Source: Candidatus Rifleibacterium amylolyticum (GTDB taxonomy: Bacteria > Muiribacteriota > Ozemobacteria > Ozemobacterales > Ozemobacteraceae). Taken from it: a stretch of 64,000 nt of DNA. The notes under the pieces are model-generated. The model had not been told where the DNA came from. It saw only the letters and a list, made by a program, of their open reading frames with translations, and did not search any database. Position numbers and translations under genes: made by a program. Position 1 is the stretch's first letter. Each line of letters starts with the position of its first letter. The stretch is taken from assembly GCA_009917695.1 (NCBI GenBank), contig JAACJG010000013.1, positions 1 through 64,000 of the forward strand, in the 5' to 3' direction. Shown here one piece after another: positions 10,890 to 62,825 of the stretch.

Positions 10890-10914
10890 CGCATGAATTT
10901 TTCAACTCTTGCTA

Positions 10915-10943
10915 TTGACAATTAGTTTGATATAAAACATTAT
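10915..10943 (+). promoter_or_regulatory. Sigma-70-like promoter for the sulfatase at 10988
   Basis: TTGACA at 10915-10920, 17 bases, then CATTAT at 10938-10943. Start of transcription expected near 10950. Confidence 0.6.
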
Positions 10944-10987
10944 CAACGCTCACCAGACAATTTAATAGCGAAAATGAGCAGTTCCAA

Positions 10988-12850
10988 ATGACAGCGTTGA
11001 TAGCATATTCAGTATTACTGAAGGTTTTCCATTTCTGGCATGTGATAGGAAAGGATGTCGGAGGTTCTCTTTTACCAAATTTTCAGTATATTGTCGCAAC
11101 TCTTGCGCTATTACTGATGTCTTTCCTGGCGTTGAGAACGATTAACAGCAACTCATTGCGCTTCTGGCTGGCATTCACCCTGAACCTGGCGCTGGGCTTA
11201 TTTTTTCATGTCAGCTACATGTATTATCGAATGTTTGCAGCTCCTCTGGATTACTCACTACTTCTTGTAGTCAGAAACGCTACTGAAGTAGGAGACAGCG
11301 CATTGAACCTCTTCAGACTCTCGGATCTATTCCTGTACTCGCTGGATATACTTATAATCATAAGTTATCTGCACTCCGGCACAAGAAATAGATTGACTCT
11401 TACGGAAAATTTTTTAATAAAAATCCCAGCAAAAAAAGTAATGATTGCTTTAGTATTACTTTTAGTCAGCTGGTATGGCAGCTTTTACCCGCTCAAGCGA
11501 TGGACACAGCCATTCGAACAGCGAGGACTTTACGCGATTGCATCTTATGGTCCAGCTGGATATGTAGTCTCAGAGACAATCAGAGAAGTGTACAGGATTG
11601 TCTCCCCCCCCGAAATTGATGATGCAACAGCTTCTCAGATACACCAGAAACTTCTGGAGCTGGCAGAAAAAAGGCAGGTGCTTACCATACCTTTTGCAAA
11701 AGAAAGCACAGCCCGAAACATCTACCCAGATGTTTTTATCATTCAAGTTGAAACCTTGATGAAGGACTTTTTGTTCAATGATTTTAATGGCATTGTTGTT
11801 ATGCCCGTATTAAGGGATCTTGCAAGCAAATCGGTATTTCTGGAAAACTTTTATTCTCATGCTGTATCAACAGCTGACTCTGATTTTTCAACTCTCACAT
11901 CATTATTACCACTTAAACTTGCAATAGCTCACATGCGTTATGCCGAAAACAGGTTTGCTTCTTTACCAAAAGAGCTTAACCACTATGGCTATTTCAATAT
12001 TTATGGCGTTGGTGGTCCAAAACATTTTTGGAATGTCGAGCGCTTTAACAGCAACATAGGTTTTGACCGAGTCTTTGCCTTGGAAGACTGGGGTGACAGT
12101 CAGAAAATTGGTCCCTGGACAAGCGATGAGGCACTGCTGAGCAATTTATTAAAGAAAACTGCAGATTGTCCCAGACCATTGTTCTGCATGGTTCACCTTT
12201 CTAGCGCACATCATCCTTTTACGCTTTCAGGACTCCCACAGACGATTTCAAATAAAGGATATGAGGGAGCTGAACTGGAACTGGCAAATCACGCCAACGC
12301 CATTAATTATGCCGACCAGGCTATCGGAATGTTCATCAAGAGTCTCGATGCAATGGGCAGATTGCAGAACTCAATAATAGTAGTTTATGGCGATCATCCG
12401 GTCATGCTGCAAGTTCAAAAAGAAAGACTCAGTAAAAAATACGGGAAACTGCCTGGATCAGAAGATCTAATGCGATTTTTAAATTCTAACGTGCCATGTA
12501 TGATTTATGCACCAGGTTTGCTCAAACCGCAGATTATCACGAAGTATTGTGGACAGATCGATCTGGCACCAACTATTCTGTCTATTCTAGGCAAAACTCA
12601 ACCTCTCAGATTTCTGGGTACTTCAGTATTTTCTGAAGGTGAGGGGGTAGCCCTTCACAAATATGAGTGTGGAAGAAATTCTGAATTGATATTTTACCAG
12701 GGTCTCATCAGCAATGACGATGCAACGGGTTTCAGACACGTCATCAATGCAAATACTCTCGAAAACGCAACGAACTCGCATGAGGTGTCTATCTATTATT
12801 CAATGTTCAAGCTTTCGAACAAAATCATAGAATATGATTATCATGAATAG
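10988..12850 (+). CDS. LtaS-like membrane sulfatase / phosphoglycerol transferase family protein
   Basis: 620 residues: about five N-terminal membrane helices (1-170), then an alkaline-phosphatase-superfamily domain. The metal-binding start is YPDVFIIQVETLM. The nucleophile region is STADSDFSTL with Thr295 in the position of the catalytic Thr of LtaS (consensus TSD.EF). The second metal site is VYGDHPVM near residue 470. Known relatives move phosphoglycerol or phosphoethanolamine groups from phospholipid to surface polymers (lipoteichoic acid, osmoregulated glucans, lipid A). In a diderm host a glucan- or lipid-modifying role is more likely than lipoteichoic acid synthesis. The gene stands alone behind its own promoter. 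Confidence 0.75.
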   Translation: MTALIAYSVLLKVFHFWHVIGKDVGGSLLPNFQYIVATLALLLMSFLALRTINSNSLRFWLAFTLNLALGLFFHVSYMYYRMFAAPLDYSLLLVVRNATEVGDSALNLFRLSDLFLYSLDILIIISYLHSGTRNRLTLTENFLIKIPAKKVMIALVLLLVSWYGSFYPLKRWTQPFEQRGLYAIASYGPAGYVVSETIREVYRIVSPPEIDDATASQIHQKLLELAEKRQVLTIPFAKESTARNIYPDVFIIQVETLMKDFLFNDFNGIVVMPVLRDLASKSVFLENFYSHAVSTADSDFSTLTSLLPLKLAIAHMRYAENRFASLPKELNHYGYFNIYGVGGPKHFWNVERFNSNIGFDRVFALEDWGDSQKIGPWTSDEALLSNLLKKTADCPRPLFCMVHLSSAHHPFTLSGLPQTISNKGYEGAELELANHANAINYADQAIGMFIKSLDAMGRLQNSIIVVYGDHPVMLQVQKERLSKKYGKLPGSEDLMRFLNSNVPCMIYAPGLLKPQIITKYCGQIDLAPTILSILGKTQPLRFLGTSVFSEGEGVALHKYECGRNSELIFYQGLISNDDATGFRHVINANTLENATNSHEVSIYYSMFKLSNKIIEYDYHE

Positions 12851-27621: not shown

Positions 27622-29346
27622 ATGGATAAGTGGAAAGAGAAAGAGGCATCGTTGATACCAAAATCAGAGCTGGCTATTGCGCTTATTCTAATGATCAGCA
27701 GTGTATTGCTCTGCTATCCATGTTTCAAAGACACCATGAACGTCCTGGATGACATGCCTTTTCATCTGGGGCGAATTCAGAGCGTTGCAGCTAATCTAAG
27801 AATTGGTAATATACTGCCAACTGTTTACGGCGATGCGATAAACAATTATGGTTATGCCAGCGCCTTTTTTTATCCTGATCTCTGGCTCTATTTGCCGGCA
27901 ATGCTTGTATTGTCAGGGTTCGAACTGCTAAGAGCATACCAGATTTTTCTTTTTCTGATAACTTTGGCCACTTCTTTGGCAATGTACTATTCGACAAAAA
28001 AGATTATGGCCATTCTTCAAATCGATCATTACTGCAATATACAGGCTGATCACGGCCTAAAAGCCGAACAGACAATTGCTTTACTGGCAACCGTTTTTTA
28101 TATCGCATTTCCTTATCGCCTGATAGACATCTATCTTAGAGGCGCATTAGGAGAAATTCTGGCCTTTGTATTCATTCCGGTAGTCGCATGGGGAGTTACC
28201 GAAATACTCCATGTTAAAAATCCTGACTGGAAGATACTGATGCTGGGCTCTCTGGGATTGCTTTATTCGCACATCATCTCATGTTTCATGGTGAGCATAC
28301 TTGTCGGGCTGATTTTTGCATTTAACTGGAAGCATAGCCTACAGATAAAGACCGGATTGGCAAAACTCTGCCTGTACAGCTCCGCACTGGGTGCTGCTTT
28401 TATAATTCCCTTGCTAGAACAAATGCGCAGCAATAAATTTTATTATAATGTCCGTAGTCCATTTGGCTCATTAGCCGAGCAATCGGCAGTTATTGCACCT
28501 GCTCTGGACAACTGGCTGCTTCTCTTATTAAATTTGGTCCTTATTGCACTTTTTTACTTCTATCACAATTGGTTGAACAGTCGCCAGAAAGATTCTCGAG
28601 TGGCACTGCTCGTTTTTGCATCTCTCTACCCTGTAGTAATGACGACAAATTTGTTCCCATGGGAATTTTTTGAACAGTTTCCTTTTGTCAGATACATCCA
28701 GTTTCCCTGGCGACTGTTCATGTTTGTCTGTTATTTCAGCTCTTTATCTGCTGGTATTATTTTGATTAAACGGTATCTTGCTCACAGGTCACAAAACTTT
28801 TTCTTTACAGTTCTTGGGCTTGTTTTAGTCTCTGGCGCCTTTCTCGTTTCCGTGTACACGCAACCATCACCAGTTGTCACCAGATCACTTGATTATGCTC
28901 CGCCTCTTGTCAGTATAGGTCAGGCAGAATATCTGCCAGCTTCATTTTCTTTCGGGGAGTTTCAAAAAAGCTCTCCAACACCCAGATTATTGGCAGGAAA
29001 TGCAACGATCACGAGTTATTCGAAAACAGGGAATCTCGCCAGACTTGCATTTTCACAGGCATCAGACTCATTTACTATTGAACTGCCAATAATTTATTAC
29101 AGAGGTTACACTGCTACAGTTAACAATCAGCCGGTTAAAATTGAAGAAAGCAGTAATGGCCAGGCTCAAGTAACTATTAACAGTCTGGAATCAGGAAATC
29201 TGATCGTTCAGTACAACCACACTCTGCTGCAGATGATAGCCTACGCCATATCTCTGACAACAATAATTTATCTACTTGTGACGAGTTTTCTGTCTCATCT
29301 GAACTGTATGATAAAGGGGTTCAGACAGTCTCGTCAGTATTATTGA
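27622..29346 (+). CDS. PTPS-related (PF10131-type) polytopic membrane protein
   Basis: 574 residues with about eleven helices. The N-terminal external loop reads DDMPFHLGRIQSVAANLRIG, then YGDAINNYGYASAFFYPDLW, the hallmark of the so-called 6-pyruvoyl-tetrahydropterin-synthase-related membrane family, which is probably a GT-C glycosyltransferase group. The C-terminal part (about 420-540) is a beta-rich external domain (IELPIIYYRGYTATVNNQPV), as in YfhO-like proteins. The 3' end overlaps the convergent GT2 gene by 26 bases. The actual sugar chemistry is unknown. Confidence 0.7.
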   Translation: MDKWKEKEASLIPKSELAIALILMISSVLLCYPCFKDTMNVLDDMPFHLGRIQSVAANLRIGNILPTVYGDAINNYGYASAFFYPDLWLYLPAMLVLSGFELLRAYQIFLFLITLATSLAMYYSTKKIMAILQIDHYCNIQADHGLKAEQTIALLATVFYIAFPYRLIDIYLRGALGEILAFVFIPVVAWGVTEILHVKNPDWKILMLGSLGLLYSHIISCFMVSILVGLIFAFNWKHSLQIKTGLAKLCLYSSALGAAFIIPLLEQMRSNKFYYNVRSPFGSLAEQSAVIAPALDNWLLLLLNLVLIALFYFYHNWLNSRQKDSRVALLVFASLYPVVMTTNLFPWEFFEQFPFVRYIQFPWRLFMFVCYFSSLSAGIILIKRYLAHRSQNFFFTVLGLVLVSGAFLVSVYTQPSPVVTRSLDYAPPLVSIGQAEYLPASFSFGEFQKSSPTPRLLAGNATITSYSKTGNLARLAFSQASDSFTIELPIIYYRGYTATVNNQPVKIEESSNGQAQVTINSLESGNLIVQYNHTLLQMIAYAISLTTIIYLLVTSFLSHLNCMIKGFRQSRQYY

Positions 29347-30301
29347 GATCTGAATTTGCCTGATCTATTTTTTCTGAGGTTTTTATAAGATATATAGGCC
29401 TTCGCTTGGTTTCAAGATATGTCTTAGCTAAATATTGCCCCAGAATGCCGGTGCAGAAAAGTTGAATTCCACCCATGAAAAGTATTATGACAGCAAGAGA
29501 TGGCCAGCCACTGACAGGGTCGCCAAACAGAAGAGTTCTAACTATGATGAAGCAGACGAAAAAGAAAGCAATCGCACAGAAAAATATTCCAACAAATGCC
29601 GACAAAGCAAGAGGAGCGGTTGAAAAAGCCGTTATGCCCTCAAGAGAATACAAAAACAACCCCCAGAAAGACCACTTGGTATTTCCGGCGGCTCTCTGAA
29701 CATTTTCATATTCCAGCCATTTGGTTTTGAAGCCCACCCACTCGTTGATACCTTTGGTAAATCGGTTGTATTCATTCATTGCCAATATCGCATCTGCCAT
29801 CTGTCGGGTCATAAGCCTGTAATCTCGTGCACCATCGACAAATTCCGTTTTGGAAATCATTTTAATCAGCTTATAATACTGTCGCGCAAAAAAAGACCGT
29901 ATTACTGGTTCGCCGGCTCTGGTCGTTCTTCTTGTTGCCGCCGAATCATAGCCTTCTCTTGTGAGAGCGAGATACATATCCATCAACAAAGAAGGCGGAT
30001 CCTGCAAATCGACATCCATTATCGCTACATAATCGCCCAGAGAATTTTCAAGCCCGGCAAAAATAGCTGCTTCCTTGCCAAAATTTCTAGAAAGAGAAAG
30101 ATAGCGAACCCTTTGGTCGCTTTTGTGCAAATCCCTGGCTATTTGAAGAGTGTTGTCCCGAGAACCGTCATCAATGAAAATAATTTCAAAGTTTACGCCT
30201 ATGCTCTTGAATCTTTCTGCCTCTTTGCAGATTTCGTCATAAAAAATCCGGATAACTTCTTCTTCATTGAAACAGGGCACTATTATCGATAACAAGCTCA
30301 T
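29321..30301 (-). CDS. GtrB-like family 2 glycosyltransferase (polyprenyl-phosphate sugar synthase)
   Basis: 326 residues: a GT-A domain (1-225) with SIIVPCFNEEEVI, FIDDGSRDNT, NFGKEAAIFAG and the metal-binding MDVDLQDP, then DGARDYRLM, and two C-terminal membrane helices (about 230-300). This is the layout of GtrB/ArnC/dolichyl-phosphate-sugar synthases, which load a sugar from a nucleotide donor onto undecaprenyl phosphate on the cytoplasmic face. It would supply donors for the nearby GT-C enzymes. It overlaps the upstream gene by ATGA (30301-30298), so the two form an operon. Confidence 0.85.
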   Translation of the reverse strand: MSLLSIIVPCFNEEEVIRIFYDEICKEAERFKSIGVNFEIIFIDDGSRDNTLQIARDLHKSDQRVRYLSLSRNFGKEAAIFAGLENSLGDYVAIMDVDLQDPPSLLMDMYLALTREGYDSAATRRTTRAGEPVIRSFFARQYYKLIKMISKTEFVDGARDYRLMTRQMADAILAMNEYNRFTKGINEWVGFKTKWLEYENVQRAAGNTKWSFWGLFLYSLEGITAFSTAPLALSAFVGIFFCAIAFFFVCFIIVRTLLFGDPVSGWPSLAVIILFMGGIQLFCTGILGQYLAKTYLETKRRPIYLIKTSEKIDQANSDLNNTDETV

Positions 30302-31827
30302 TCTTCTGTTACTCCATGTTCCAGATTATGTTTGATGCGCCTGTAGTATACGGCATTATCAGTGGCCAGCACTAATTTGTATTTTTGCGGGTGGCTCTTC
30401 AAATATACAGCTAAAGCGTGATTAAATCTAATAAGAAAAGCATCGAAATCATACTTCTCGATTATTTTTTCAGGATCAAATATTTTATCCAGCTGTTTTT
30501 CATCTGACTGAACCAGATTTGACAGGCTTCTTGTATCTCGCAGGTTATGTGGTGAAAACAGGTCGGCCCTGGCATCAGCAAAAGTTTCTATGTCATTGTA
30601 TATAAGCGATTCGCCAAAGTTGTAATCATTGAATAGCCTTTTGGGGGCATCTCTCTTTACAAATTCTATGATTTTTTTATCTAACACAGAAGAAATAAGC
30701 TTACCCTCACGGACTGTGTTAATCGTCGCTTTAATGCTTAATACATTTGTCAGGATCAACGCTGCGACAATCAGCATAAATGCTGGCTTATCATACCGGG
30801 TCTTTACTGATTTAGATTCTCTGAATATTAAATAATCAAATGTAAAAAAAGTAGAAGCAATATAAAAGACAACCCCAAATCTCACACTTCTGAAGAACAT
30901 ATAAGCAAAAAATAGAAAAAGCAGCAGGTCCAGGACTTTAACTTTCTTATCTGTAATAACCAGGCTCAGCGATACTATAAGCATCGGCCAGAAAAACAGG
31001 ACGAGATGAGTTATCTGTTTGGCATCCGGCGGGGCCCATTCATTGATCATATCCTGCATAAAAGCATCGCCCATGTTGGCATAAGGATATACAATCATGT
31101 CTACGCCATAAGGGTTCAAGGCCAGAGCAAAAAGAGAAAGAATTCCTACTCCCAGAATGGTGATCAACTGCTTTCTTGAGAGTTTTTCGCCATGCAGCTT
31201 GCCGAATGAGAATTCAAGAGCTCCGGAAACAAAAAATATGAAACAAAGAATATAAGAAAGGGTTGACGATCCGCCGTGAAGATTGCCCCAAAGCACAGAG
31301 AGAACAGGTATGAAATAAATCAGTCTGGATGATTCACTTTCCTTATAGCGGTACAAACAGAATAATGTCGCATAGATAAGAAAATAGCTTATCAAATGAG
31401 GTCGGCCGTAGAACATGAAACGAAACAGCACCACCATTGGTGCAAGATATATGATGGTAAAAGCTATATTTTTTCTTATAGCCTGCCTGCTTCTGAACAA
31501 AATAAGCATCGCCATGGCAATGGCAGAACCCAATGAAAACAAAAATATACCAATATCATGTGTCAGGCTGTGAATCAGATAAAACAATACCTGCGACATC
31601 CATTCATGAGAAGCCCAGATCAGACCTTTCTCCTTAGCATACCAGGAAAAAATATCAATGGTTGGCAAAGCACGGTTGTTCACCATCCATTCACCCGCTT
31701 TTACATGCCACCAGAAATCATTGCCAGAAATACCTAGACTGAATGAAGCTATCAATCCGGTGATAATAGAAAAAACAAGAATCCAGAACGGCTTATCATC
31801 AATCAACTTCTCTTCACTGCCATTCAT
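30298..31827 (-). CDS. Polytopic membrane protein, GT-C glycosyltransferase-like
   Basis: 509 residues, about ten to eleven helices. The N-terminal external loop GNDFWWHVKAGEWMVNN, followed by IDIFSWYAKEKGLIWASHEW, is a recurring signature (DFWWHL..G.....IP..D.FS......W..HEWL) of bacterial membrane proteins in polysaccharide loci. A C-terminal soluble segment (KRLFNDYNFGESLIYNDIET) follows the last helix. A GGAGG site precedes the ATG by eight bases. It is coupled to the GtrB-like gene downstream. It probably uses the lipid-linked sugar that GtrB makes; this is inferred from the gene pair. Confidence 0.65.
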   Translation of the reverse strand: MNGSEEKLIDDKPFWILVFSIITGLIASFSLGISGNDFWWHVKAGEWMVNNRALPTIDIFSWYAKEKGLIWASHEWMSQVLFYLIHSLTHDIGIFLFSLGSAIAMAMLILFRSRQAIRKNIAFTIIYLAPMVVLFRFMFYGRPHLISYFLIYATLFCLYRYKESESSRLIYFIPVLSVLWGNLHGGSSTLSYILCFIFFVSGALEFSFGKLHGEKLSRKQLITILGVGILSLFALALNPYGVDMIVYPYANMGDAFMQDMINEWAPPDAKQITHLVLFFWPMLIVSLSLVITDKKVKVLDLLLFLFFAYMFFRSVRFGVVFYIASTFFTFDYLIFRESKSVKTRYDKPAFMLIVAALILTNVLSIKATINTVREGKLISSVLDKKIIEFVKRDAPKRLFNDYNFGESLIYNDIETFADARADLFSPHNLRDTRSLSNLVQSDEKQLDKIFDPEKIIEKYDFDAFLIRFNHALAVYLKSHPQKYKLVLATDNAVYYRRIKHNLEHGVTEE

Positions 31828-31845: not shown

Positions 31846-33261
31846 CTACATCGAAAGTCTTTTAAACAAATAAAGTCGACGCTGTGATTCTGATATAGCT
31901 TCACTTGCTTCCAAATGAAACTGCGTTAAAAAGGCCTCTTCGAAACTACTTTCATTGTAGTCCGGAAATATGTCTGGACGCGAAGCAAGCAGTCTCTGCA
32001 CCTGTGAATCTGACTTAGGAACGAATTCAATAATCAGATAATTGCAGATCCGTGCCATAAATGAAGCAATAAGCGACAATGGGAGGTTGTTGGAAATTGC
32101 CAGATGATGGATAAGCGCCAGAGCCATAACGGTATCGGCCGGGCCTCGCGAAAAAAGTGATCTACGCTCTTCATTCGCCCAGCCAATTGCCGGCGAAGGG
32201 TTAGTGATATCAAGCAAAAGAGGCAATATTTTACAGTCTTTCTGGTCGCGACAAAAAAGATAATTCTTTTCAACCGCGGCCGGATCTATATCGAATGCGA
32301 TTACTCTTTTACTGTATTGGGCTGCGATATGGCTATACACGCCAGTATTGGCGCCAAGATCCCATACCAGCTCCTGCGATCCAATTTTATCAAAAAACTG
32401 TTCTATCAACTTCTTTTTGTGCTCGGCAGAAGCATCTTTATAATTGGTGTTTGCGTAATAATTACCCCATTCAGTGCCCTTGGCTTTATAGTTTTGAGCA
32501 TTAATGCCTGACTCGAGACTATCGATGATCCCAAGCAGAGCATTTCGTGAAACTTTTCCCTGAGACTGACCGGAGGGAGCTTTGTCGGCAAAATAATTCT
32601 GAGATCCAGCATGAAGATGGATATGTGTCAGAAGAGAAAAATTCAGCCAGGTTCGCAACGGCAACAATCTACTTGCAAGATCCAGAGGAATACCATCTAT
32701 ATTAGCCAACCAGAGCTTTTGCAGCCTGATATCACAACGACTCATCAACGCTAACGGAGCGAGAAAGTGCTGACAAAACTGTCGGTATGCAGACCAGGGC
32801 TCACCTTCTCTGTACGGCTCAAAAGACAATGTGTCAATAAAAACAGGTTTTGCATTAACAAATTGAATATTGAATGCACTACAATCTTTCAGAGACATGC
32901 CAAATTCCAAGGCTGTTTTCTGAATCTGTAAAGTCGCTGATGCTGCGTCTCTCAATTGGCTGAAAGACCATTCCCATGGATACGATGTAAAAGGCACCTG
33001 AGCTGGACGAATAACTTTATAGGAAGTATTTGAATCGAAAGGCTCAACAGCGACTTCTTCGTGCGCAACTAGCAGCCCAGATTTTACAAGCGAGTCATAG
33101 AACCCTGATTTTATAAGACTTTCGTAACACTCTTTACCAACGAAGTTTATCTGACGGTATATCTGGCCTTCACGAGAAAACACAAAACCTGCAGGATCTC
33201 TAAATGATGAGGCTATTCGCTCACTGGTCATCTTATTCTGATTCTGATCCTCTGCCAGCAT
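31846..33261 (-). CDS. NoeA-like SAM-dependent methyltransferase
   Basis: About 471 residues. The N-terminal 240 residues resemble the nodulation-protein NoeA-like group: SSFRDPAGFVFSREGQIYRQ, RPAQVPFTSYPWEWSFSQL, LKDCSAFNIQFVNAKPVFID. The C-terminal half is a methyltransferase: LVWDLGANTGVYSHIAA, VIAFDIDPAAVEKNY, then ALIHHLAISNNLPL. The start is uncertain: TTG 33270, ATG 33261 and ATG 33231 are all in frame and overlap or abut the upstream gene's end, and no ribosome site is clear. NoeA relatives modify extracellular glycolipids or proteins; the substrate here is unknown. Confidence 0.75.
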   Translation of the reverse strand: MLAEDQNQNKMTSERIASSFRDPAGFVFSREGQIYRQINFVGKECYESLIKSGFYDSLVKSGLLVAHEEVAVEPFDSNTSYKVIRPAQVPFTSYPWEWSFSQLRDAASATLQIQKTALEFGMSLKDCSAFNIQFVNAKPVFIDTLSFEPYREGEPWSAYRQFCQHFLAPLALMSRCDIRLQKLWLANIDGIPLDLASRLLPLRTWLNFSLLTHIHLHAGSQNYFADKAPSGQSQGKVSRNALLGIIDSLESGINAQNYKAKGTEWGNYYANTNYKDASAEHKKKLIEQFFDKIGSQELVWDLGANTGVYSHIAAQYSKRVIAFDIDPAAVEKNYLFCRDQKDCKILPLLLDITNPSPAIGWANEERRSLFSRGPADTVMALALIHHLAISNNLPLSLIASFMARICNYLIIEFVPKSDSQVQRLLASRPDIFPDYNESSFEEAFLTQFHLEASEAISESQRRLYLFKRLSM

Positions 33262-33595
33262 GCTTTTCAAACCGCTCAGCCCCTTTATCTTCAGATGATT
33301 CCGACTTCAACTGCTTGTTCGTAACTTCCGAGTCTACAGTAGATTTGTTATCCTCAGGATTATGGCGGCAAAACCAGCTCTTGATTCTTTGCCAATAGCT
33401 TTTTACAACAAAAAGCGCACCAAAAAGAGCTGCAATAAGAGTTTGCAAAATAAAACTGCCGGTGCCAGGATCAAGATAAGAGTAAGCAGCAGGTAATACT
33501 CCTGTCAGAAAAAAAATCAACAAAAATGCGATTTTCAAACATATCGATTTCGTAGGAAAGAAAGAATTTGAGTATTCTATCCCGCGATGTTTCAT
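33233..33595 (-). CDS. Small membrane protein of polysaccharide loci
   Basis: 120 residues from ATG 33595, with an AGGCAGG-like site upstream; the TTG at 33613 is less likely. One helix in the first 30 residues is followed by YLDPGTGSFILQTLIAALFG, a well-conserved motif of small uncharacterised bacterial membrane proteins that accompany phosphodiesterase- or sulfatase-type glycan genes, then a charged tail rich in Ser, Glu and Lys. It overlaps the start region of the methyltransferase gene, so the two are probably one operon. Function unknown. Confidence 0.65.
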   Translation of the reverse strand: MKHRGIEYSNSFFPTKSICLKIAFLLIFFLTGVLPAAYSYLDPGTGSFILQTLIAALFGALFVVKSYWQRIKSWFCRHNPEDNKSTVDSEVTNKQLKSESSEDKGAERFEKHAGRGSESE

Positions 33596-33747
33596 ATGAG
33601 TTACCTGCCTCAAAAGAATTTTGTCAGCAGTATATCTTCATTTATTGCCAGAAGCCAGTTATTTTTAGCCCATAACATGGAGAACGCATGGGTTCTGTGA
33701 TAAACTAACTCAACGTTTGAACAATAGATCTGAGTGGCTTTTCCATT

Positions 33748-35361
33748 ATGCAAGACCCAGACAGAAATGCAACTATCAATGCATGCATTTTGCCTGTATG
33801 TACAGCCATTATCCCAATTTTGCTGCCGTATACAGGAAACATGGAGCAATTATCTCTGACTGACGCGCTTCTGCTGATGACTGCGAGCAGTCTTACCTCG
33901 CTGCTCATATTTATTGTTGCCGGCAGATTCTGCAAAAGCATGGCTGAAGCCGCTTTATCGACGTCTTTCATTGTGTTTGTCTTTTTCTCACATCGACACT
34001 TTGTTGGCATGTTAAGTATGATAGGGCAGAACAAAGGCTTGGGAGCAACAGGTAACCTTCTATTCTCTTTGTTAATCATGGCTACTGGAATCCTTTACAT
34101 AAGGTATCGCATCAAAAGCCACCAGGATTTTTTGAAAGTAATAAATGTAATGGCCACCGTGCTGTTGATTATCAGCACAGGCAAGATTGCTGCCTTTTAC
34201 TTGAGTCCACCTTATCCACGACTGGTTGAAGCAGATGCACTTGCATCAGTTGAAATTTCGAAGCCTGAAGCCGGATTCCCAGATATTTATTTTATCATTC
34301 TTGATGGTTATGCAAGAAACGATACCCTTAAAAGCCTTTACAATTTCGACAACAGTTCATTTATCAATGAACTTGTAAATCAGGGTTTTTATGTAGCAAC
34401 GAAAAGTAATGCCAATTACATTCAAACCAATCTGTCGCTGGCCGGCACTTTGAACCTTTGCTATCTTGACAGTATTGCATCAAGAATAAATGACAATTCT
34501 CTTGGGCCAACAATGAGTTTGATCTCGACAAATGCCTTTTCAGCGATTCTCAAGCGTGCGGGATATGAAACCGTTGCTTTTGAAAGCGGTTATGACATCA
34601 CCGAGCTGCAACAGGCCGATCGTTACTACTCACAATCTATGATCAGCCAACAATTTCTCAACCTGATTCTCTCTACTACTATTTTGAACGATATCAAGTT
34701 TCAAATATTCAATACAACTTCTATTCAAGCTGAGAGACACGCTCGACTGATCCGTAATACTCTGATTAAAATTGGCGAAATGAAGGTTAAGGGTGCGCCT
34801 AAATTTGTCTTTGCACACATACTTTGCCCGCACCCGCCTTTCGTATTCAACTCTGATGGCACATTGATGGATCAGGAGCAATCTTTTGAAATCAGAGATG
34901 GCAGCCACTTGAGTATGGACAATGCAAAATACCGTTTAAACTATATAAAACAGCTTGAATACATCAATATCATGGTCAACAATATGCTGAGTGATATTCT
35001 TAAAGAATCAGAGCGCCCCAAAGTCATTGTTCTGCAATCGGATCACGGCCCCGGATCTGAGCTTGACAGTGAAAGCAAACAAAACACTTTATTGTCAGAA
35101 CGTTTTGGCATATTGAACGCAATTTATTTTTCTGACAAAAATCATTCATCTCTTTATCAGTCGATTTCGCCAGTTAATATGTTCAGAGTTATACTCAACA
35201 AGTATTTTGCAACAAATCTTGCGTTGTTAGAAGACAGACACTTCTATTCTACATGGGGAGACAGATATAATTTTATTGATGTAACTGATGAGCTTACCAA
35301 TGCTTTCATGAACCCCTCGATTAAATCTTATCCGACATCTGATGCGTCTGAAGAAGAATAA
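33748..35361 (+). CDS. Membrane sulfatase-like phosphotransferase/hydrolase
   Basis: 537 residues: about five N-terminal helices (to about 165), then an alkaline-phosphatase-superfamily domain beginning PDIYFIILDGYARNDTLKSL. Further blocks are NYIQTNLSLAGTLNLCYL (nucleophile region), FVFAHILCPHPPFVF and VLQSDHGPG (second metal site). The family includes phosphoethanolamine- and phosphoglycerol-transferases and sulfatases of surface glycans. The stop is two bases before the ATG of the fusion protein at 35364, so they are co-transcribed. The protein at 38267-39841 is a clear paralogue with the same blocks. Confidence 0.75.
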   Translation: MQDPDRNATINACILPVCTAIIPILLPYTGNMEQLSLTDALLLMTASSLTSLLIFIVAGRFCKSMAEAALSTSFIVFVFFSHRHFVGMLSMIGQNKGLGATGNLLFSLLIMATGILYIRYRIKSHQDFLKVINVMATVLLIISTGKIAAFYLSPPYPRLVEADALASVEISKPEAGFPDIYFIILDGYARNDTLKSLYNFDNSSFINELVNQGFYVATKSNANYIQTNLSLAGTLNLCYLDSIASRINDNSLGPTMSLISTNAFSAILKRAGYETVAFESGYDITELQQADRYYSQSMISQQFLNLILSTTILNDIKFQIFNTTSIQAERHARLIRNTLIKIGEMKVKGAPKFVFAHILCPHPPFVFNSDGTLMDQEQSFEIRDGSHLSMDNAKYRLNYIKQLEYINIMVNNMLSDILKESERPKVIVLQSDHGPGSELDSESKQNTLLSERFGILNAIYFSDKNHSSLYQSISPVNMFRVILNKYFATNLALLEDRHFYSTWGDRYNFIDVTDELTNAFMNPSIKSYPTSDASEEE

Positions 35362-35363
35362 AT

Positions 35364-38264
35364 ATGCATAATAACAAATCAGATCGACTGTATTTATGGG
35401 ATAACGCAAAAGGGATTCTCATTGCTTTAGTTGTATTCGGTCATTTTCTCACCCCCTACCGCTCGATACCAGAAGTGAAGACGATATTCGACATTATTTA
35501 TTTTTTTCACATGCCAGCCTTTGTATTTGTCTCAGGTTACCTTAGTCGCCTGACATCAGACAATCGCAAGGCAATCCTCAAACTATGTATTGCATATGCT
35601 CTATTCAATTTTCCAATGATGGTATACGTGGTTTTGCATAAAAACAATGCTCCAAGCCTTTTGACGCCTTATTATTCCTTCTGGTATCTTCTGGCTCTTA
35701 TCGCCTGGCGTCTAATTGTTCCAACTATTTCCAAAACGCGCGAAATACTTTTCTTTAGTATATTCACAGCAGTTTTAATCGGTTTCTGGAATGAAATCGA
35801 CAATACGCTGGCAATCTCAAGAATAATTGGCTTCCTGCCTTTCTTTCTTGCAGGCTATATGCTCGATGAAAACAAGCTCAGCGACTTTTTCAAGAAGAGG
35901 CGTTTATTACATACCTGCCTTGGACTCACTTTATTGGCAATAACCCTCTATCTCAGCATCATCATTTCCCAGGCAGATATGACACTTTCGGATCTTCTAT
36001 TTTTCCCATATGCAACGCCTGGAAGATTCATTTTTAGAATTTTCATACTACTGATTTCAGCTGCTGTAATAGTCTCTTCAGGACTGATACTTCCCGAAAG
36101 CCCCATTTATCTGCTAACTCGCTGGGGCAGGAACTCCCTCTCAATTTATATTCTGCACAGATTCATAACATTGGTCGCTACTGACCTTTACCCTTTGAGC
36201 CATGAACCATCTATTGTTTTAATAGCGTCTATAACTGGAACAATCCTGACTCTTTTCATGCTTGGGCTGGATCGCTTGAGCAGCAGTATAAATCTGCTGA
36301 TCGCCGTGTTATCAGATGCCATTGCAGCTCCTGTTAGAAATGCAAGAGGATTAAGAATGGCATTCTGCATTTTTCTTTTATGCCATCTGTTTTTTGTTAT
36401 TAAATATCGAGCTCCCGAGAAAGCCGATGTCTCTCATGCCGTATTAACAGCCCAGCAAAACAGCCAGATAACAAATGCAATATCGATTGCTTTTGTTGGC
36501 GACATTATCCTTCTCAGAGATCAGATTAGAAGAGCTTACTCAGCTGAAAAGCAAGAGTATGATTTCTCCCCGGTTTTTGAGTATGCAAAAAAACATCTGC
36601 TTACAGCCGACCTGGCAATCGGAGTGTTTGAAGGTCCTATGGCCGGCAAAGACGAGGGTTATTCTACAAGCAATTATGGTGACGGAATTCCACTATATCT
36701 TAACTTCCCAGACTCATTCGTCGATTCGGTAATAGATTCCGGGATTGATCTGGTAACGCTGGCAAATAACCATATTCTTGACATGGGTGAAGAAGGTGCA
36801 AGCCGAACCCGCCAGGTGTTAGATGCCAAAAAGCTTAAATACGTCGGCTCATACAGCAATATCTCTGAGAAGAACCAGCCGAAGATTGTAGGGTTAAAAG
36901 GGCTGCGAATAGCTATTCTTGCCTATAGCTTTCCAAGCAATTACTATTCAGAAGATTATTTCTTTGATATCAACCCCTCTCTTACCTCAGTCATAGTAGG
37001 GAAAAGCAGTCGTTATTTCAGCGAAGCACGGTCTCAGGTTCATGTTGATTTTGAGCGCGCAAAAGCAGAAAATCCTGATCTAATAGTAGTTTTGCCGCAC
37101 ATGGGAACTCAATTTATACACGAGACCGATACTTTTCAGAAAACATGGAATGAAATATTTATAAATGAGGGAGCAGATATTATTCTTGGAGACCATTCAC
37201 ATGCTGTGCAACCGGTCGAATTTCGCAAAGTTGTAATAAAAAACCGCGAAAAGCAGGTTGTCATAGTTAACAGCCCTGGCAATTTTGTCAACTCGTATAT
37301 TGAGCACAACGGCGACGCGACTTCGATTGTCAAAGTATTTATCGATTCAGAAACAAAATCTGTGATTTGCGCGGGAATTATTCCGATGATAACGCAGGCC
37401 TTCAGCAATGGTCAGCATCGTGCTCTGCCCATTATAGACATTCTGAATGACACATCTCTGAGAAATCATCTGAGCCTGCTCGAAATGAAACGAGTTCAGC
37501 AAGTGCAATCTCTTGTAACAAAAGTTATGCTTGGAACAGAGCTTTCACTTGATCAAGCTCAGAATTTGTATTACCTGTTCCCGGATGGCTATTATCGTCA
37601 GCCAGTTGCCGGCATTCACCTGGAAGATAATGCATATCAGAATGACGTTCGCAAGATGTTTGAAACCGCAAGTTCGGTATTATTTATCGGCGACAGTGTT
37701 ACGCACGGAACAAAGAACGGCGGCTACGGCTGGTATGAGCCTTTAACTGCGAGTCTGCCAATGCTGCAGGTTGCACGAGAAGCCTGGGGCAGTGCAACAA
37801 CTATTACATTACTGGATAATCTCGATACAATATGTTCTCACAAAGCTGATTTATACGTCATTGCCATTGGAACGAACGATATTCGTTATAGAGACGCCCG
37901 CAGGTGCGCGATGACGCCGCAACAATACATTGCAAACCTGGAAAGACTAACTGAAGCTATTTCTCAAAAGAGCCCCGATGCAAGTTTCATTTTTATTGCT
38001 CCATGGCCATCTCTGGAAAATGATCCTTTTATAAAAATTCCTCAGGATAAGAAAAGAGAATTATTCTCAGATTATTACAAGGCTCTTGAAAGCTTCTGTA
38101 AGAAACAAGGCTATCGGTTTGTTGATCCAACGCAAGCGATTCTTACAGCCATAGATAAAAAGATTTCTGGCTTCTATCTTCTCGATCATATTCACCCCAA
38201 TGCAAATGATGGATTGAGGCTATACAGTGAAGCTTTTATGTCTTCTCGAGAACTCACAGAATGA
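35364..38264 (+). CDS. Three-domain fusion: acyltransferase-3, CapA-like phosphatase, SGNH hydrolase
   Basis: 966 residues. Residues about 8-350 are a ten-helix acyltransferase family 3 domain (RLYLWDNAKGILIALVVFGH; FFHMPAFVFVSGYLSR), like sugar O-acetylases. Residues about 372-680 are a CapA/PGA-type metallophosphatase domain: AFVGDIILLRDQI, LANNHILDMGEEG, VVLPHMGTQF, LGDHSHAVQP, NSPGNFVNS. Residues about 772-960 are an SGNH/GDSL esterase domain: LFIGDSVTHG with the catalytic Ser near 777, IGTNDIRY (near 836) and the DHIHPN dyad (near 942). The frame is uninterrupted, so this is one polypeptide with acyl transfer in the membrane and two exported hydrolase domains. Acetylation coupled to deacetylation of a surface polymer is a plausible role. 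Confidence 0.85.
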   Translation: MHNNKSDRLYLWDNAKGILIALVVFGHFLTPYRSIPEVKTIFDIIYFFHMPAFVFVSGYLSRLTSDNRKAILKLCIAYALFNFPMMVYVVLHKNNAPSLLTPYYSFWYLLALIAWRLIVPTISKTREILFFSIFTAVLIGFWNEIDNTLAISRIIGFLPFFLAGYMLDENKLSDFFKKRRLLHTCLGLTLLAITLYLSIIISQADMTLSDLLFFPYATPGRFIFRIFILLISAAVIVSSGLILPESPIYLLTRWGRNSLSIYILHRFITLVATDLYPLSHEPSIVLIASITGTILTLFMLGLDRLSSSINLLIAVLSDAIAAPVRNARGLRMAFCIFLLCHLFFVIKYRAPEKADVSHAVLTAQQNSQITNAISIAFVGDIILLRDQIRRAYSAEKQEYDFSPVFEYAKKHLLTADLAIGVFEGPMAGKDEGYSTSNYGDGIPLYLNFPDSFVDSVIDSGIDLVTLANNHILDMGEEGASRTRQVLDAKKLKYVGSYSNISEKNQPKIVGLKGLRIAILAYSFPSNYYSEDYFFDINPSLTSVIVGKSSRYFSEARSQVHVDFERAKAENPDLIVVLPHMGTQFIHETDTFQKTWNEIFINEGADIILGDHSHAVQPVEFRKVVIKNREKQVVIVNSPGNFVNSYIEHNGDATSIVKVFIDSETKSVICAGIIPMITQAFSNGQHRALPIIDILNDTSLRNHLSLLEMKRVQQVQSLVTKVMLGTELSLDQAQNLYYLFPDGYYRQPVAGIHLEDNAYQNDVRKMFETASSVLFIGDSVTHGTKNGGYGWYEPLTASLPMLQVAREAWGSATTITLLDNLDTICSHKADLYVIAIGTNDIRYRDARRCAMTPQQYIANLERLTEAISQKSPDASFIFIAPWPSLENDPFIKIPQDKKRELFSDYYKALESFCKKQGYRFVDPTQAILTAIDKKISGFYLLDHIHPNANDGLRLYSEAFMSSRELTE

Positions 38265-38266
38265 TC

Positions 38267-39841
38267 CTAGTCACTCGTTTTTTCAATGATTTGTGCCTTG
38301 TTTGTAATATCTACAAATTTGTACAAGTCTTTGAAGGTGACGTAATGGCTTTTATCGGGAAGAAGGCTGATTTCGTTATTTAGAGCTTTTTTGAAAACTG
38401 CGCGAAAGTTGTTTACTGGAGATAAAGAGGGTTTGAGGCCATCATGGTTGCTGTCTGGCAGGTAGATGGCGTTGAGAATGGACATGCGCTCAAGAATATT
38501 TGTGCGTTCGAGAGAGCTGTAATCTACATCAGATGCAGGTCCGTGGTCGGCCTGAATGATGATGACCTTTTTGCGGCTTTTATCAGCCAGCAGTCGTGAG
38601 ATACAATCTTTTAACTGTGAATTTACGTAGATCAGCTGATCAACGTAATTCTTGCGATAAGTTGATATATCCATATACCTTCGCAGATACATGCCATCTG
38701 AATAATCAAAGTAGGGAAGATCGAGCGGACTGCCGTCACGGGCAAAGACAAAGGGCGCATGCGGTGTCAACAGGTGAGCGAACACGAATGCTGGCTGGCC
38801 TTTTCCTGCCACTGATGGCAGCTCTGAAAAGACTTTTCTGATGGCATTGCGGTGAGCATCAGCGTGAAAACGAACCAGATTCCAGCTGCCAAAATTGCAG
38901 GAAGCCAGAATTGTCTTGCGCGAAAGCACGCATAGAAGTTCGCGACAGATGGGGCTGTCGGCAATAAACCGGTCAAACTGCCGCATTTCAGTGGCCATGT
39001 AACCACTTGAAAACGCGATTGTTTGATAGCCAAGCTGCTTGAACTCACGCACGACCAGGCTGTCGGCAATCAGATCTACCAATGGAGAAAAGCCGTGAAA
39101 GTCAGGCGAATGGTTTTTGCCAGTCGCCAGATAGCCCATATTAAGCGAGCTTGCCAGAGAAAAGTAAGTCAGCGGATAGTTCGAGCGGCTGGCTGAAGCA
39201 ACAAAGAAGCCCTGCTCTTCAAGAAAATCAGTAAAATCAGAATTGTCGAAGTCATATAAGCTTTTAAGCGTGTCGTTTCCGGCATAACTGTCGAGAACAA
39301 TGTAGTAAATATCGGGAAGACTAGCAGTCTGTCTGCTGGCATGATTAAGATCATCGTTCAGAACCACCAGATCTGCCCGAGGCTTCATTAATGCATGATA
39401 GCTCAAAATATTCCAGGCATTGAAAAACACCAGCACTGCGACAAAAACATTGGCAAAAGTCGTCAGAGCCTTGAGGCTTCTGACTTTACGCGCAAAAATA
39501 TAGGTCTCGACCGCCCAGAAAACCAGCCATAATACCGCAAACCAGCAGTTTGAAAGCGGCCAGCCGAATCCGGCATCGCCAACAAAAACCGAGGCGAGAG
39601 GCCCGTAATAGACAGTTGCAAAAAATATGGTCGAAACGGCCAGAGAAGCCCGTTCCAGATTTCCGGTCAGGCGGTAAAAAATAAACAACCCCACAATAAC
39701 CGATAAAAGACTTGCTGCTGCCGGAACAAACAGTTCAGATGCGACGAATTTATCGACATTTTCAGCCCAAACCCCGAGAATCGGCAAAACAGCCAATCCC
39801 AGCGAATGAAAGCACCTGAGAATTACATTTATAACCAGCAT
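38267..39841 (-). CDS. Membrane sulfatase-like protein, paralogue of the one at 33748
   Basis: About 524 residues from ATG 39841; a longer frame to TTG 39877 is open but has no better ribosome site. About four N-terminal helices are followed by PDIYYIVLDSYAGNDTLKSL, FVFAHLLTPHAPFVF, VIIIQADHGPASDVD and LNAIYLPDSNHDGLKPSLSP. The same blocks occur in the same order in the gene at 33748-35361, so the two are paralogues on opposite strands flanking the fusion gene. Its stop is two bases from the stop of the fusion gene. Likely a phosphoglycerol/phosphoethanolamine-transferase- or sulfatase-type surface enzyme. Confidence 0.75.
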   Translation of the reverse strand: MLVINVILRCFHSLGLAVLPILGVWAENVDKFVASELFVPAAASLLSVIVGLFIFYRLTGNLERASLAVSTIFFATVYYGPLASVFVGDAGFGWPLSNCWFAVLWLVFWAVETYIFARKVRSLKALTTFANVFVAVLVFFNAWNILSYHALMKPRADLVVLNDDLNHASRQTASLPDIYYIVLDSYAGNDTLKSLYDFDNSDFTDFLEEQGFFVASASRSNYPLTYFSLASSLNMGYLATGKNHSPDFHGFSPLVDLIADSLVVREFKQLGYQTIAFSSGYMATEMRQFDRFIADSPICRELLCVLSRKTILASCNFGSWNLVRFHADAHRNAIRKVFSELPSVAGKGQPAFVFAHLLTPHAPFVFARDGSPLDLPYFDYSDGMYLRRYMDISTYRKNYVDQLIYVNSQLKDCISRLLADKSRKKVIIIQADHGPASDVDYSSLERTNILERMSILNAIYLPDSNHDGLKPSLSPVNNFRAVFKKALNNEISLLPDKSHYVTFKDLYKFVDITNKAQIIEKTSD

Positions 39842-39943
39842 TTTGAGCAGATTACAGCAAACTTCAGGTATTCGCAATCATAAGTTTACCCAATGTCTGT
39901 TATTGGCATTGAAAATGCACAACAGATAAGTTAGCATCAGGTC

Positions 39944-60189: not shown

Positions 60190-60588
60190 ATGTTTGAACA
60201 CATCGAAAGAATTCAGATTATCTCTGTCATTGGCAGTCTGACATTTCTAGCCATGATAATCCGCCTGATCAAGCATAAAATGCTTAAGGAAGCCTACGCC
60301 ATACTCTGGTTGATCTTTGGAGTCGTCTTTCTGATCTGCTCGGTCTGGAAAAAGGGCTTGGATTATTTTGCCGGAATTGTCGGGATCTACTATCCTCCAG
60401 CACTACTGTTCCTGATAATGATCATAGCCTTGATTCTCGTGCTTATACAATTTTCAATAATTGTATCATCGCAAAACGATAAAATTCGCCAGCTCAGCCA
60501 GGAAGTAGCATTACTTTCAATCTCATGGCAAAAAAATAAGAAACTGGAAGAGCCATCAGATAATGCTAAAAATAAACCTGACTGCTAA
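60190..60588 (+). CDS. DUF2304 small membrane protein
   Basis: 132 residues with three helices and a polar, coiled C-terminus (DKIRQLSQEVALLSISWQKN). RIQIISVIGSLTFLAMIIRL, LKEAYAILWLIFGVVFLICS and YYPPALLFLIMIIALILVLI match the DUF2304 pattern. Members typically follow a GT2 gene, as here, and probably anchor or assist it at the membrane. Its stop overlaps that of the convergent STT3-like gene by four bases. Confidence 0.85.
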   Translation: MFEHIERIQIISVIGSLTFLAMIIRLIKHKMLKEAYAILWLIFGVVFLICSVWKKGLDYFAGIVGIYYPPALLFLIMIIALILVLIQFSIIVSSQNDKIRQLSQEVALLSISWQKNKKLEEPSDNAKNKPDC

Positions 60589-62825
60589 TTCTTTTCAGTA
60601 ACCGGCAACAAGTCCTCTTCTTTTATTTCCATTCTTCCTGTCAGATCATTGCCTTTAACGACGTCTTCTTCGCTTATAGCCAGCGTTGCCTTAATCGTTT
60701 TTCCATCGCTGAAGTAAGCAAACTTATAAAACGGTTCTGTTTCAACCCTGCCGCCCTTATGTGACGTCGTATATGGAAGAATGAAGCTTGCCTGCCCTGA
60801 TGAAGAAACTTCCTGCGATTTCTTAAAGAGATAGGTATTGCCATTTATTCTCATTTCCAGAGACAGTTGACATGTGGTTCCCGGGTCAGCTTTGATATCA
60901 ATTTTTGCGCCAGCGACTTTTTCAAACAGAATATAGGGTGAAAGAACGTTTTCCGGGCTCTTTGCCGCATAAACAACACGAAAATGCGAACTGCTGGTAA
61001 ACCCGCCTCTGGCCGTTAAACAAAGATTCTCGATCAACCAGAAATAAAAATTGCTGCGATAGTCTGGATCGAGGGGAATGTCTGTATACTTGAGAACATA
61101 CTCCGGGCGGTCCGGCATATCCTTAAAAGCCGGCCAGATTTGATAGGTATGCAGATTGTATTCATTATAAGTGCTTACCAGGGCGTATCTGATACGATAT
61201 TTGGTAAAAAGATCTACAGCAGCCTGCTCAGTTTTCGAAGAAAAGATTTCTGCCATGGTCTTGTAACCCCACATGGCATTATTTACTACGGCCGGTCGAC
61301 GAGCATAGTATGAAAGACGATTACCCTCATCCCAGAAAGAGAGTATTCCATATTCAGGCTTACCTTCAGATGCATATCCAGATGTTTCTGGAGTATTGTT
61401 CCTGATCCAGGTATAGGCTTCAACTTCAGGTTCGGATAGCGTCATTAACTTGCTGATCCATTGAAAGTTATGATTTATCTGCGCAACCAGAAGTGGAATG
61501 AATATCGCTGCCAGCCAGATATTCTTGAATCTGTTGCCCGAGAACTCCCGGTAAGTCATACGCCAGACAATGGCGTAAACTACGGCATAATAGAGCCCTG
61601 CGCCCATAAAAAGCCATCTGATATAGCGAATCTGATAAAATGCCATAAGCAGCATAAGCCCAATCCAGAAACGCAGAAACCTCTCTTCTGATGCATCAAA
61701 AAAATTCCACCTGGCGAAGAAAAAGATTGGCAGAAATACTATACCAATCCCGAAATATGTCATTACGTCCTTAATATTTGCATTGTTTTCCATAAACTTC
61801 AGTGGAGAAAAAACACTTTTTAACTCACTGATCGATCTGTGGATTGGATCGGTTTGAAATAAAAATCCTGTCGCCTGCATCAACTGTTCTCTAAGTATGA
61901 GGGCCACAGCTACAGAAAGAAAAATCATCATCCCCATGCCGAGAACTCGACTGACTTTGCGCGCTTGAAGCTGCTTGAGACCGAAACAGGCAAGCCCACC
62001 CACCAGAATACATCCCATCTGAAAATAGCTGTACTTTGAGATTGAAAGCATTTCATCGGCAAGACTTGCGGGCCTCAGCAGCAAAAAATTAACAGCCGCG
62101 CCAACCAGCATGGTAGAACCGGCATAATCGAGAAAAATGCTTGAATCTTCAGTATTACGCAGCCAGACGATGAATCCAAACAGGGTCACAAAGAAAAAGA
62201 AAAGCGGAGTGCCAGACCAGGTTGCGATAAAAAGGGTTGTTAAAGTTGCCCCAACAAGTTTCCAAAAGGATTTGCCGCTTCTGAGAATAAGCAGATAACA
62301 ACACAACCAGCCCCAGATAAAAAAAGAAATGAGAAAATCATAATCAAGACGCATGAAACCGCTTACAAAAGAAGATGGACAGGCAGGCAACATAAAAAAG
62401 CCGCAGAAGAGCAGAAAAATCCGGCTCCGGCTCAATTTGAACGCCGTCAGAAGAATTATAGAACCTGTTATCCAGGCGAAAATTATTGGCAGGAAACCCG
62501 CCACATGCATTGGATCGATCTGGCTGTCAGGGAAAACCTGAAAATACAAAGCCGTGGTGTTATACAAAAACCACAGGTAAAATGGTCCAAAACCATGTCT
62601 GATCTCATAAGGGAAGCAACCATACATATCATACTGTATAATCTCGCCGCGAAGAATAGACTGTTCAAGCAATCTTGCAAAAAGAATCGAATCTGGATCA
62701 TATTGAGCAAACTGACCTGCCAGAGGGAAAATTTGCCAAAGATGGGAAGTTAACCAGATCAGCATCAGTGCCGATAGGATAATCAGAATGAAAAAAAACT
62801 TTACAGACTGTCTTGATTTGAACAT
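60585..62825 (-). CDS. STT3-family oligosaccharyltransferase
   Basis: 746 residues with about thirteen helices to about 450 and a soluble exported C-terminal domain. All STT3/PglB/AglB signatures can be placed: first acidic motif in loop 1, FAQYDPDSILFARLLEQ (D43-P-D45); second, MRLDYDFL (D161-Y-D163); the TIXE/SVSE-type motif as SISE (E334); and the WWDYG-type motif as SFWDEGNRLSYYARRPAV (W498-D499-E-G). These hold the metal and acceptor sequon in known enzymes, which transfer a lipid-linked oligosaccharide to Asn. The gene lies between DUF2304 and a pseudopilin in the pil locus. The WWDYG variant may alter acceptor choice. Confidence 0.8.
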   Translation of the reverse strand: MFKSRQSVKFFFILIILSALMLIWLTSHLWQIFPLAGQFAQYDPDSILFARLLEQSILRGEIIQYDMYGCFPYEIRHGFGPFYLWFLYNTTALYFQVFPDSQIDPMHVAGFLPIIFAWITGSIILLTAFKLSRSRIFLLFCGFFMLPACPSSFVSGFMRLDYDFLISFFIWGWLCCYLLILRSGKSFWKLVGATLTTLFIATWSGTPLFFFFVTLFGFIVWLRNTEDSSIFLDYAGSTMLVGAAVNFLLLRPASLADEMLSISKYSYFQMGCILVGGLACFGLKQLQARKVSRVLGMGMMIFLSVAVALILREQLMQATGFLFQTDPIHRSISELKSVFSPLKFMENNANIKDVMTYFGIGIVFLPIFFFARWNFFDASEERFLRFWIGLMLLMAFYQIRYIRWLFMGAGLYYAVVYAIVWRMTYREFSGNRFKNIWLAAIFIPLLVAQINHNFQWISKLMTLSEPEVEAYTWIRNNTPETSGYASEGKPEYGILSFWDEGNRLSYYARRPAVVNNAMWGYKTMAEIFSSKTEQAAVDLFTKYRIRYALVSTYNEYNLHTYQIWPAFKDMPDRPEYVLKYTDIPLDPDYRSNFYFWLIENLCLTARGGFTSSSHFRVVYAAKSPENVLSPYILFEKVAGAKIDIKADPGTTCQLSLEMRINGNTYLFKKSQEVSSSGQASFILPYTTSHKGGRVETEPFYKFAYFSDGKTIKATLAISEEDVVKGNDLTGRMEIKEEDLLPVTEKN

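Follow-up and report, generated by a model that had tools for sequence, protein, structure and literature searches.

A single gene of Candidatus Rifleibacterium amylolyticum encodes a 966-residue protein in which an AT3 acyltransferase, a PGA_cap (CapA) domain and an SGNH domain are joined, and comparison with homologous proteins indicates that PGA_cap and SGNH constitute one conserved module with a changeable acyltransferase partner. The gene is located at 35364-38264 (+) of the window, the 64,000-nucleotide stretch of DNA analyzed here. The parts belong to known families and the layout extends that of AT3-SGNH proteins; the module with a changing partner is new. On this evidence the protein has the look of a machine for cell-surface acylation that has not been described before. 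The first-pass annotation had regarded the three-domain order as unfamiliar, and indeed many such proteins are encoded but none was found described: 5.39 million open papers yielded none combining AT3, PGA_cap and SGNH domains. The three-domain family is thus undescribed there, and unannotated InterPro entries with the same architecture may already exist.

Domain layout and active-site residues

The ORF list and translation give a single open frame of 966 codons from an ATG start. Both the uninterrupted frame and the order of the three enzyme domains had been read correctly at first pass, and each domain exceeds its Pfam gathering cut-off: Acyl_transf_3 at residues 12-297 (35397..36254, +; 70.3 bits, cut-off 31), PGA_cap at residues 375-644 (36486..37295, +; 181.8 bits, cut-off 27) and Lipase_GDSL_2, the SGNH domain, at residues 774-947 (37683..38204, +; 67.5 bits, cut-off 32.9). 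An inter-domain region (residues 645-770; 37296..37673, +), common to all module members in the alignment of homologues, lies between the last two. By hydropathy, the protein has several membrane helices within the AT3 part and another at residues 329-347 (36348..36404, +). AT3-SGNH proteins possess an 11th transmembrane helix (TMH) after AT3 (PMC9558356), and the extra helix, the predicted TMH11, would likewise place the C-terminal domains outside. In the full-length AlphaFold2 model the AT3 part has a pLDDT of mostly 35-55 and the SGNH catalytic loops are low, while PGA_cap, the best-conserved of the three domains among homologues, is confident. A frame artefact or chimeric assembly is ruled out by intact orthologues in the sister species (full-length, 58% identity to the window protein) and in eleven other genomes. 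Rfam gives no match anywhere in the window.

Profile score and motifs both place the N-terminal domain in the AT3 (Acyl_transf_3 / TmAT) family (motifs in PMC12423673, PMC7448272). The published motif list comprises D-x-x-R/K-x10-H in TMH1, FxxxxG in TMH2, a Gly in TMH6 and a Tyr in TMH9 (PMC12423673). The window protein keeps DxxK-x10-H (D13, K16, H27), FxxxxG (F53, G58), the TMH6 Gly (G164) and SxxxY (S258 and Y262, the TMH9 Tyr). Across the 12 AT3 sequences compared D13, K16, H27, F53, G58, G164 and S258 are invariant, and Y262 is replaced by Phe in one (L134). There is no RxxR in the TMH3 region, and Arg is not retained in homologues at R62 or R68. This absence does not exclude AT3 membership, since the first Arg of the motif is conserved in most members, not in all (PMC12423673). 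Weak matches of the domain go to OpgC/MdoC and NolL, not to OatA.

The middle domain falls within the PGA_cap (CapA) family, its profile, calcineurin-like fold and metal-site residues being in agreement. All metal-site residues are present (D380, E423, N469, H470, D473, H579, D610, H611, H613), and the ligands are retained in 17 of 18 sequences, the exception coming from the Synergistota genome G1280. Among solved structures, sequence and fold alike put it closest to MslH, a Ca-dependent peptide epimerase (fold E 5.7e-14); phosphodiesterases 5eqv and 5kar are weaker fold matches in a search with the AlphaFold2 model. Asn87, His88, Asp91 and His295, shown to be important for MslH (PMC10406935), align to N469, H470, D473 and H613, and E423 would correspond, by motif position, to MslH Glu44. 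The score against the MslH NCBIfam equivalog is 37 bits, below the cut-off of 700. The label "phosphatase", given to this domain at first pass, is not upheld: the nearest solved relative is an epimerase, and the metallophosphoesterase-type ligands, which would be compatible with a phosphatase, leave the label unproven.

The C-terminal domain carries the residues of SGNH Blocks I, II, III and V (S778, G809, N838, D941, H944), and its S, G, N and H fit the SGNH hydrolases. S778, within a GDS motif (776-778), and H944 are the catalytic Ser and His that had been expected near 777 and 945. In all 18 sequences Ser, Asn, Asp and His (S778, N838, D941, H944) are invariant; G809 is near-invariant, with Ala in L133 only. 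Block II reads W808-G809-S810, and in homologues the residue before the Gly is Q, V, F or Y. In OatA, Block II is (V/I)(G/S)(R/V) and the Val/Ile serves transfer (PMC5697884); it is absent from the window SGNH, which has Trp808 instead. The likeness to OatA seen at first pass therefore holds for the AT3-SGNH similarity and fails for this OatA-specific residue. The canonical Block II/III residues alone cannot separate esterases from transferases; SaOatA has both Gly and Asn (PMC9487903). The nearest SGNH structures are acetylesterases, including the acetylxylan esterase Axe2 (sequence E 7e-6, with fold matches).

The PGA_cap-SGNH module and its acyltransferase partners

A first scan of genome contigs with the single protein as query gave no match; the wider search used a profile built from the last ~615 residues (PGA_cap+SGNH). 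Within the phylum, the three-domain gene occurs in 2 of 40 genomes: that of the window (5.39 Mb) and that of the same-genus relative G022, where the full-length copy lies at L017:6001-8901 ('Candidatus Riflebacteria bacterium isolate MM_PC_MetaG.mb.182'). The 380 Negativicutes genomes contain nine intact AT3-PGA_cap-SGNH proteins (L054-L062) and another whose AT3 start is truncated (L053). Hexapeptide-PGA_cap-SGNH proteins are present there as well, three of them (L049-L051) plus one further hexapeptide copy whose two parts are in different frames (L052). Two intact, Pfam-confirmed three-domain proteins (G557, G795) and one interrupted copy (G567) are found among 391 sampled Clostridia genomes. 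Uniqueness to the window's genome is ruled out by the copies in the sister species, Negativicutes and Clostridia. In Synergistota, 4 of 188 genomes encode proteins that lack AT3 and in which PGA_cap-SGNH follows a hydrophobic anchor at the N terminus. None of 395 Bacteroidota genomes has a two-domain match at E<=1e-50, and plasmid records give single-domain matches only. SGNH-only and PGA_cap-only relatives are common; Negativicutes have a dozen SGNH-only relatives, stand-alone proteins of ~230 aa close to the module's SGNH and with no evident signal peptide (L064-L075). A gene for a DUF6056 membrane protein (307 bits), adjoining HIT and sirtuin genes, often neighbors the three-domain gene in Negativicutes (L085, at 10529-11953, with relatives in L078, L080, L084, L086 and L087).

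The module thus occurs with a fused AT3, with a fused CysE/EpsC-like hexapeptide acetyltransferase (Selenomonadales) or with an adjacent hexapeptide gene (Synergistota). The CapA domain had been described at first pass as inserted between AT3 and SGNH; the distribution reverses this picture, PGA_cap+SGNH being the stable unit and the acyltransferase the exchangeable part. In three of the four Synergistota module genomes a gene for a hexapeptide acetyltransferase of ~185 aa is directly upstream of the module. Orthologues of it (62-100% identity) occur in 3 of 188 Synergistota genomes, all among those four; the chance of such co-occurrence is ~4e-6 for independent genomes, a figure that is indicative only because Synergistota genomes are related. 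The fused and adjacent hexapeptide domains share 55% identity over 111 residues, and the best NCBIfam matches of this partner are EpsC and CysE (serine O-acetyltransferases), below curated cut-offs. The fused-hexapeptide copies form a single supported Negativicutes clade (97/95). Module and AT3 trees agree in separating {Riflebacteria, G557} from {G795, Negativicutes}, the AT3 tree being long-branched, and AT3 and module accordingly appear to have been inherited together. Because the module keeps swapping acyltransferase partners and co-occurs with them, the acyltransferase is functionally coupled to it. The hexapeptide fusions have neither signal peptide nor TM helix, which would leave their module in the cytoplasm, and the compartment may differ between branches.

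The fourth Synergistota module genome, G1280, has no hexapeptide orthologue, and five metal-site residues of its PGA_cap are lost (D380E, E423Q, D610S, H613F, N640C), with the SGNH triad intact. In G1265 the module gene (L137) has two in-frame TAG codons, both at Gln positions, and the hexapeptide partner carries one stop. Seven neighboring genes carry none, which rules out TAG recoding; joint decay of the module and hexapeptide genes is more likely, assembly error being the alternative. With interrupted copies in Synergistota (two) and Clostridia (one), part of the neighborhood evidence stems from genes in decay or from flawed assemblies.

Genomic context in Riflebacteria

The fusion gene lies in a region (~25.5-39 kb) of 39-44% G+C, compared with ~49-53% outside. 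This AT-rich region contains GT87, GT2, two sulfatase-like genes and unclassified membrane proteins, and is a surface-glycan island. A sulfatase-superfamily membrane protein (33748..35361, +; Pfam PF00884, 1.6e-8) with a putative LtaS/EptA-like layout is encoded on the same strand just ahead of the fusion gene, with 2 nt between the two. The sister species has the same pair on the same strand, with a 38-nt gap. These features bear out the surface-polymer setting proposed at first pass. A second sulfatase-superfamily gene (38267..39877, -; Pfam) is convergent with the fusion gene, which is thus flanked by genes for two similar membrane proteins, one co-oriented and one convergent. Also within the island are a GT2 polyprenyl-phosphate-sugar synthase-like gene (29321..30301, -; Pfam and similarity), with a homologue near the sister fusion, and an ORF for a 509-aa polytopic membrane protein (30298..31827, -), with a homologue at the sister locus. 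TPR and fn3 genes border the island; similar genes border the sister locus in a different order, and the genes flanking that locus match those of the window in size and kind. Neither poly-gamma-glutamate synthase (pgsB/C) nor lasso genes were seen near the fusion gene.

Two further observations concern the window. The stretch 31846-33613 encodes a 474-aa methyltransferase-like protein and, ahead of it, a small membrane protein with the motif YLDPGTGS; neither matches Pfam. At 60585-62825, a 746-aa protein is oligosaccharyltransferase-like, matching the AglB core and L1 models of Pfam.

Proposed function, alternatives and related systems

The preferred reading, in which confidence is evenly balanced, is that of a membrane enzyme with two successive roles: acylation of a surface polymer, then processing and trimming of the polymer once acylated. 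AT3 would take cytoplasmic acyl-CoA, probably acetyl-CoA, and carry the acyl group across the membrane, as its conserved acyl-CoA-site motifs suggest. The post-AT3 helix would set the PGA_cap-SGNH module outside, where it would work on the acylated product and not merely provide the last AT3 step: the metal-dependent PGA_cap would cut or rearrange the acceptor, probably a surface glycan, and the SGNH serine enzyme would take off or relocate the acyl ester, presumably in that order. The coordinated acylation, dephosphorylation and ester handling of the first-pass annotation would keep its surface-polymer setting, with the dephosphorylation unsupported beyond compatible ligands. Points against this reading include the copies in Negativicutes, Clostridia and Synergistota, which lie outside evident glycan clusters, the predicted cytoplasmic location of the hexapeptide fusions, which would fit poorly with a strictly extracytoplasmic role, and the transferase use of SGNH in characterized AT3-SGNH fusions.

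In the relay model of AT3-SGNH proteins, acetyl passes from AT3 to SGNH and on to the glycan (PMC7448272, PMC5697884), and characterized fused proteins of this kind employ SGNH as a transferase (PMC7448272). As the main rival reading, it is possible, though doubtful, that the window protein follows this OatA/OafB-type route, with Ser778 passing the group to a surface glycan and PGA_cap just binding or trimming the acceptor. Polysaccharide O-acetyltransferases are known to be built in this way, with an 11th helix after AT3 and SGNH at the C terminus (PMC9558356, PMC7448272), and the Ser-Gly-Asn-His residues are complete. However, the same SGNH accompanies hexapeptide acetyltransferases in other genomes. 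Such enzymes acetylate directly from acetyl-CoA and need no SGNH relay. This partnership, Trp808 in a Block II position that varies among homologues, and acetylesterases as the closest solved SGNH structures all make a pure relay less likely, as do the SGNH-only homologues of Negativicutes without signal peptides, and a module acting on an already acylated substrate is favored. SGNH is therefore probably not just an OatA-type relay.

The match to MslH would instead suit peptide or amino-acid chemistry, with PGA_cap acting either as a C-alpha epimerase in the manner of MslH or, in that of CapA/PgsA, on material of the poly-gamma-glutamate type, and with acyltransferase and esterase protecting and deprotecting the peptide. 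The four aligned MslH residues, the proximity of the hexapeptide partner to serine O-acetyltransferases and one copy (L019) adjoining a condensation-domain gene all point in this direction. It is nevertheless improbable, given an MslH model score far under the cut-off, a neighborhood free of pgsB/C and lasso genes and a glycan-type context in Riflebacteria. Least probable of all, and hardly to be expected, is a fusion for co-expression of three enzymes that catalyze separate steps of one polysaccharide pathway with no direct hand-over: the domains are separable, as their frequent single-domain relatives demonstrate, but the congruent AT3 and module trees and the co-occurrence with the hexapeptide partner argue for coupling.

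A further reading, offered tentatively and rather unlikely, is a self-contained 'acylate - process - deacylate' enzyme: the acyltransferase would set an acyl tag on a polymer or peptide, the CapA-type domain would act on tagged substrate only, and SGNH would remove the tag. Under such a scheme the acyltransferase could give way to one of any other fold, provided that it attaches an identical tag. If true, it would be the first clear biochemical handle on CapA-family domains. Little of the chemistry of the widespread CapA/PGA_cap domains is defined, and the fixed SGNH and acyltransferase partners tell of the surrounding chemistry. The natural swaps of two unrelated acyltransferase folds also make the function testable by separately expressed domains.

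The commonest AT3 fusions are AT3-SGNH and AT3-alanine racemase (PMC9558356), and the present family adds another kind. Like OatA, OafA, OafB and PglI, the window protein has an N-terminal AT3 with K-x10-H, an extra helix and a C-terminal SGNH with Ser-His-Asp, and would likewise be a membrane protein for extracytoplasmic acylation. In contrast to these, its AT3 has no TMH3 RxxR, its Block II has Trp and not Val/Ile, and a 270-residue PGA_cap plus a linker stands ahead of SGNH, which thus does not directly follow AT3 and TMH11 as in the OatA/OafB type; furthermore, its type of PGA_cap-SGNH part also occurs with another acyltransferase. With the PGA_cap / CapA / PgsA family, including MslH, it shares the calcineurin-like fold and the metal-site residues, but its PGA_cap is joined to SGNH and an acyltransferase. 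Among the CysE/EpsC/WcaB hexapeptide O-acetyltransferases, the alternative partner of the module is nearest to EpsC/CysE, though below cut-offs, and differs in being fused or adjacent to PGA_cap-SGNH, in genomes other than that of the window protein. Axe2 and the SGNH acetylesterases have GDS, the Block II Gly, GxND and DxxH in common with the window SGNH; those enzymes are free hydrolases, whereas the window SGNH is part of a membrane protein and stands beside an acyltransferase.
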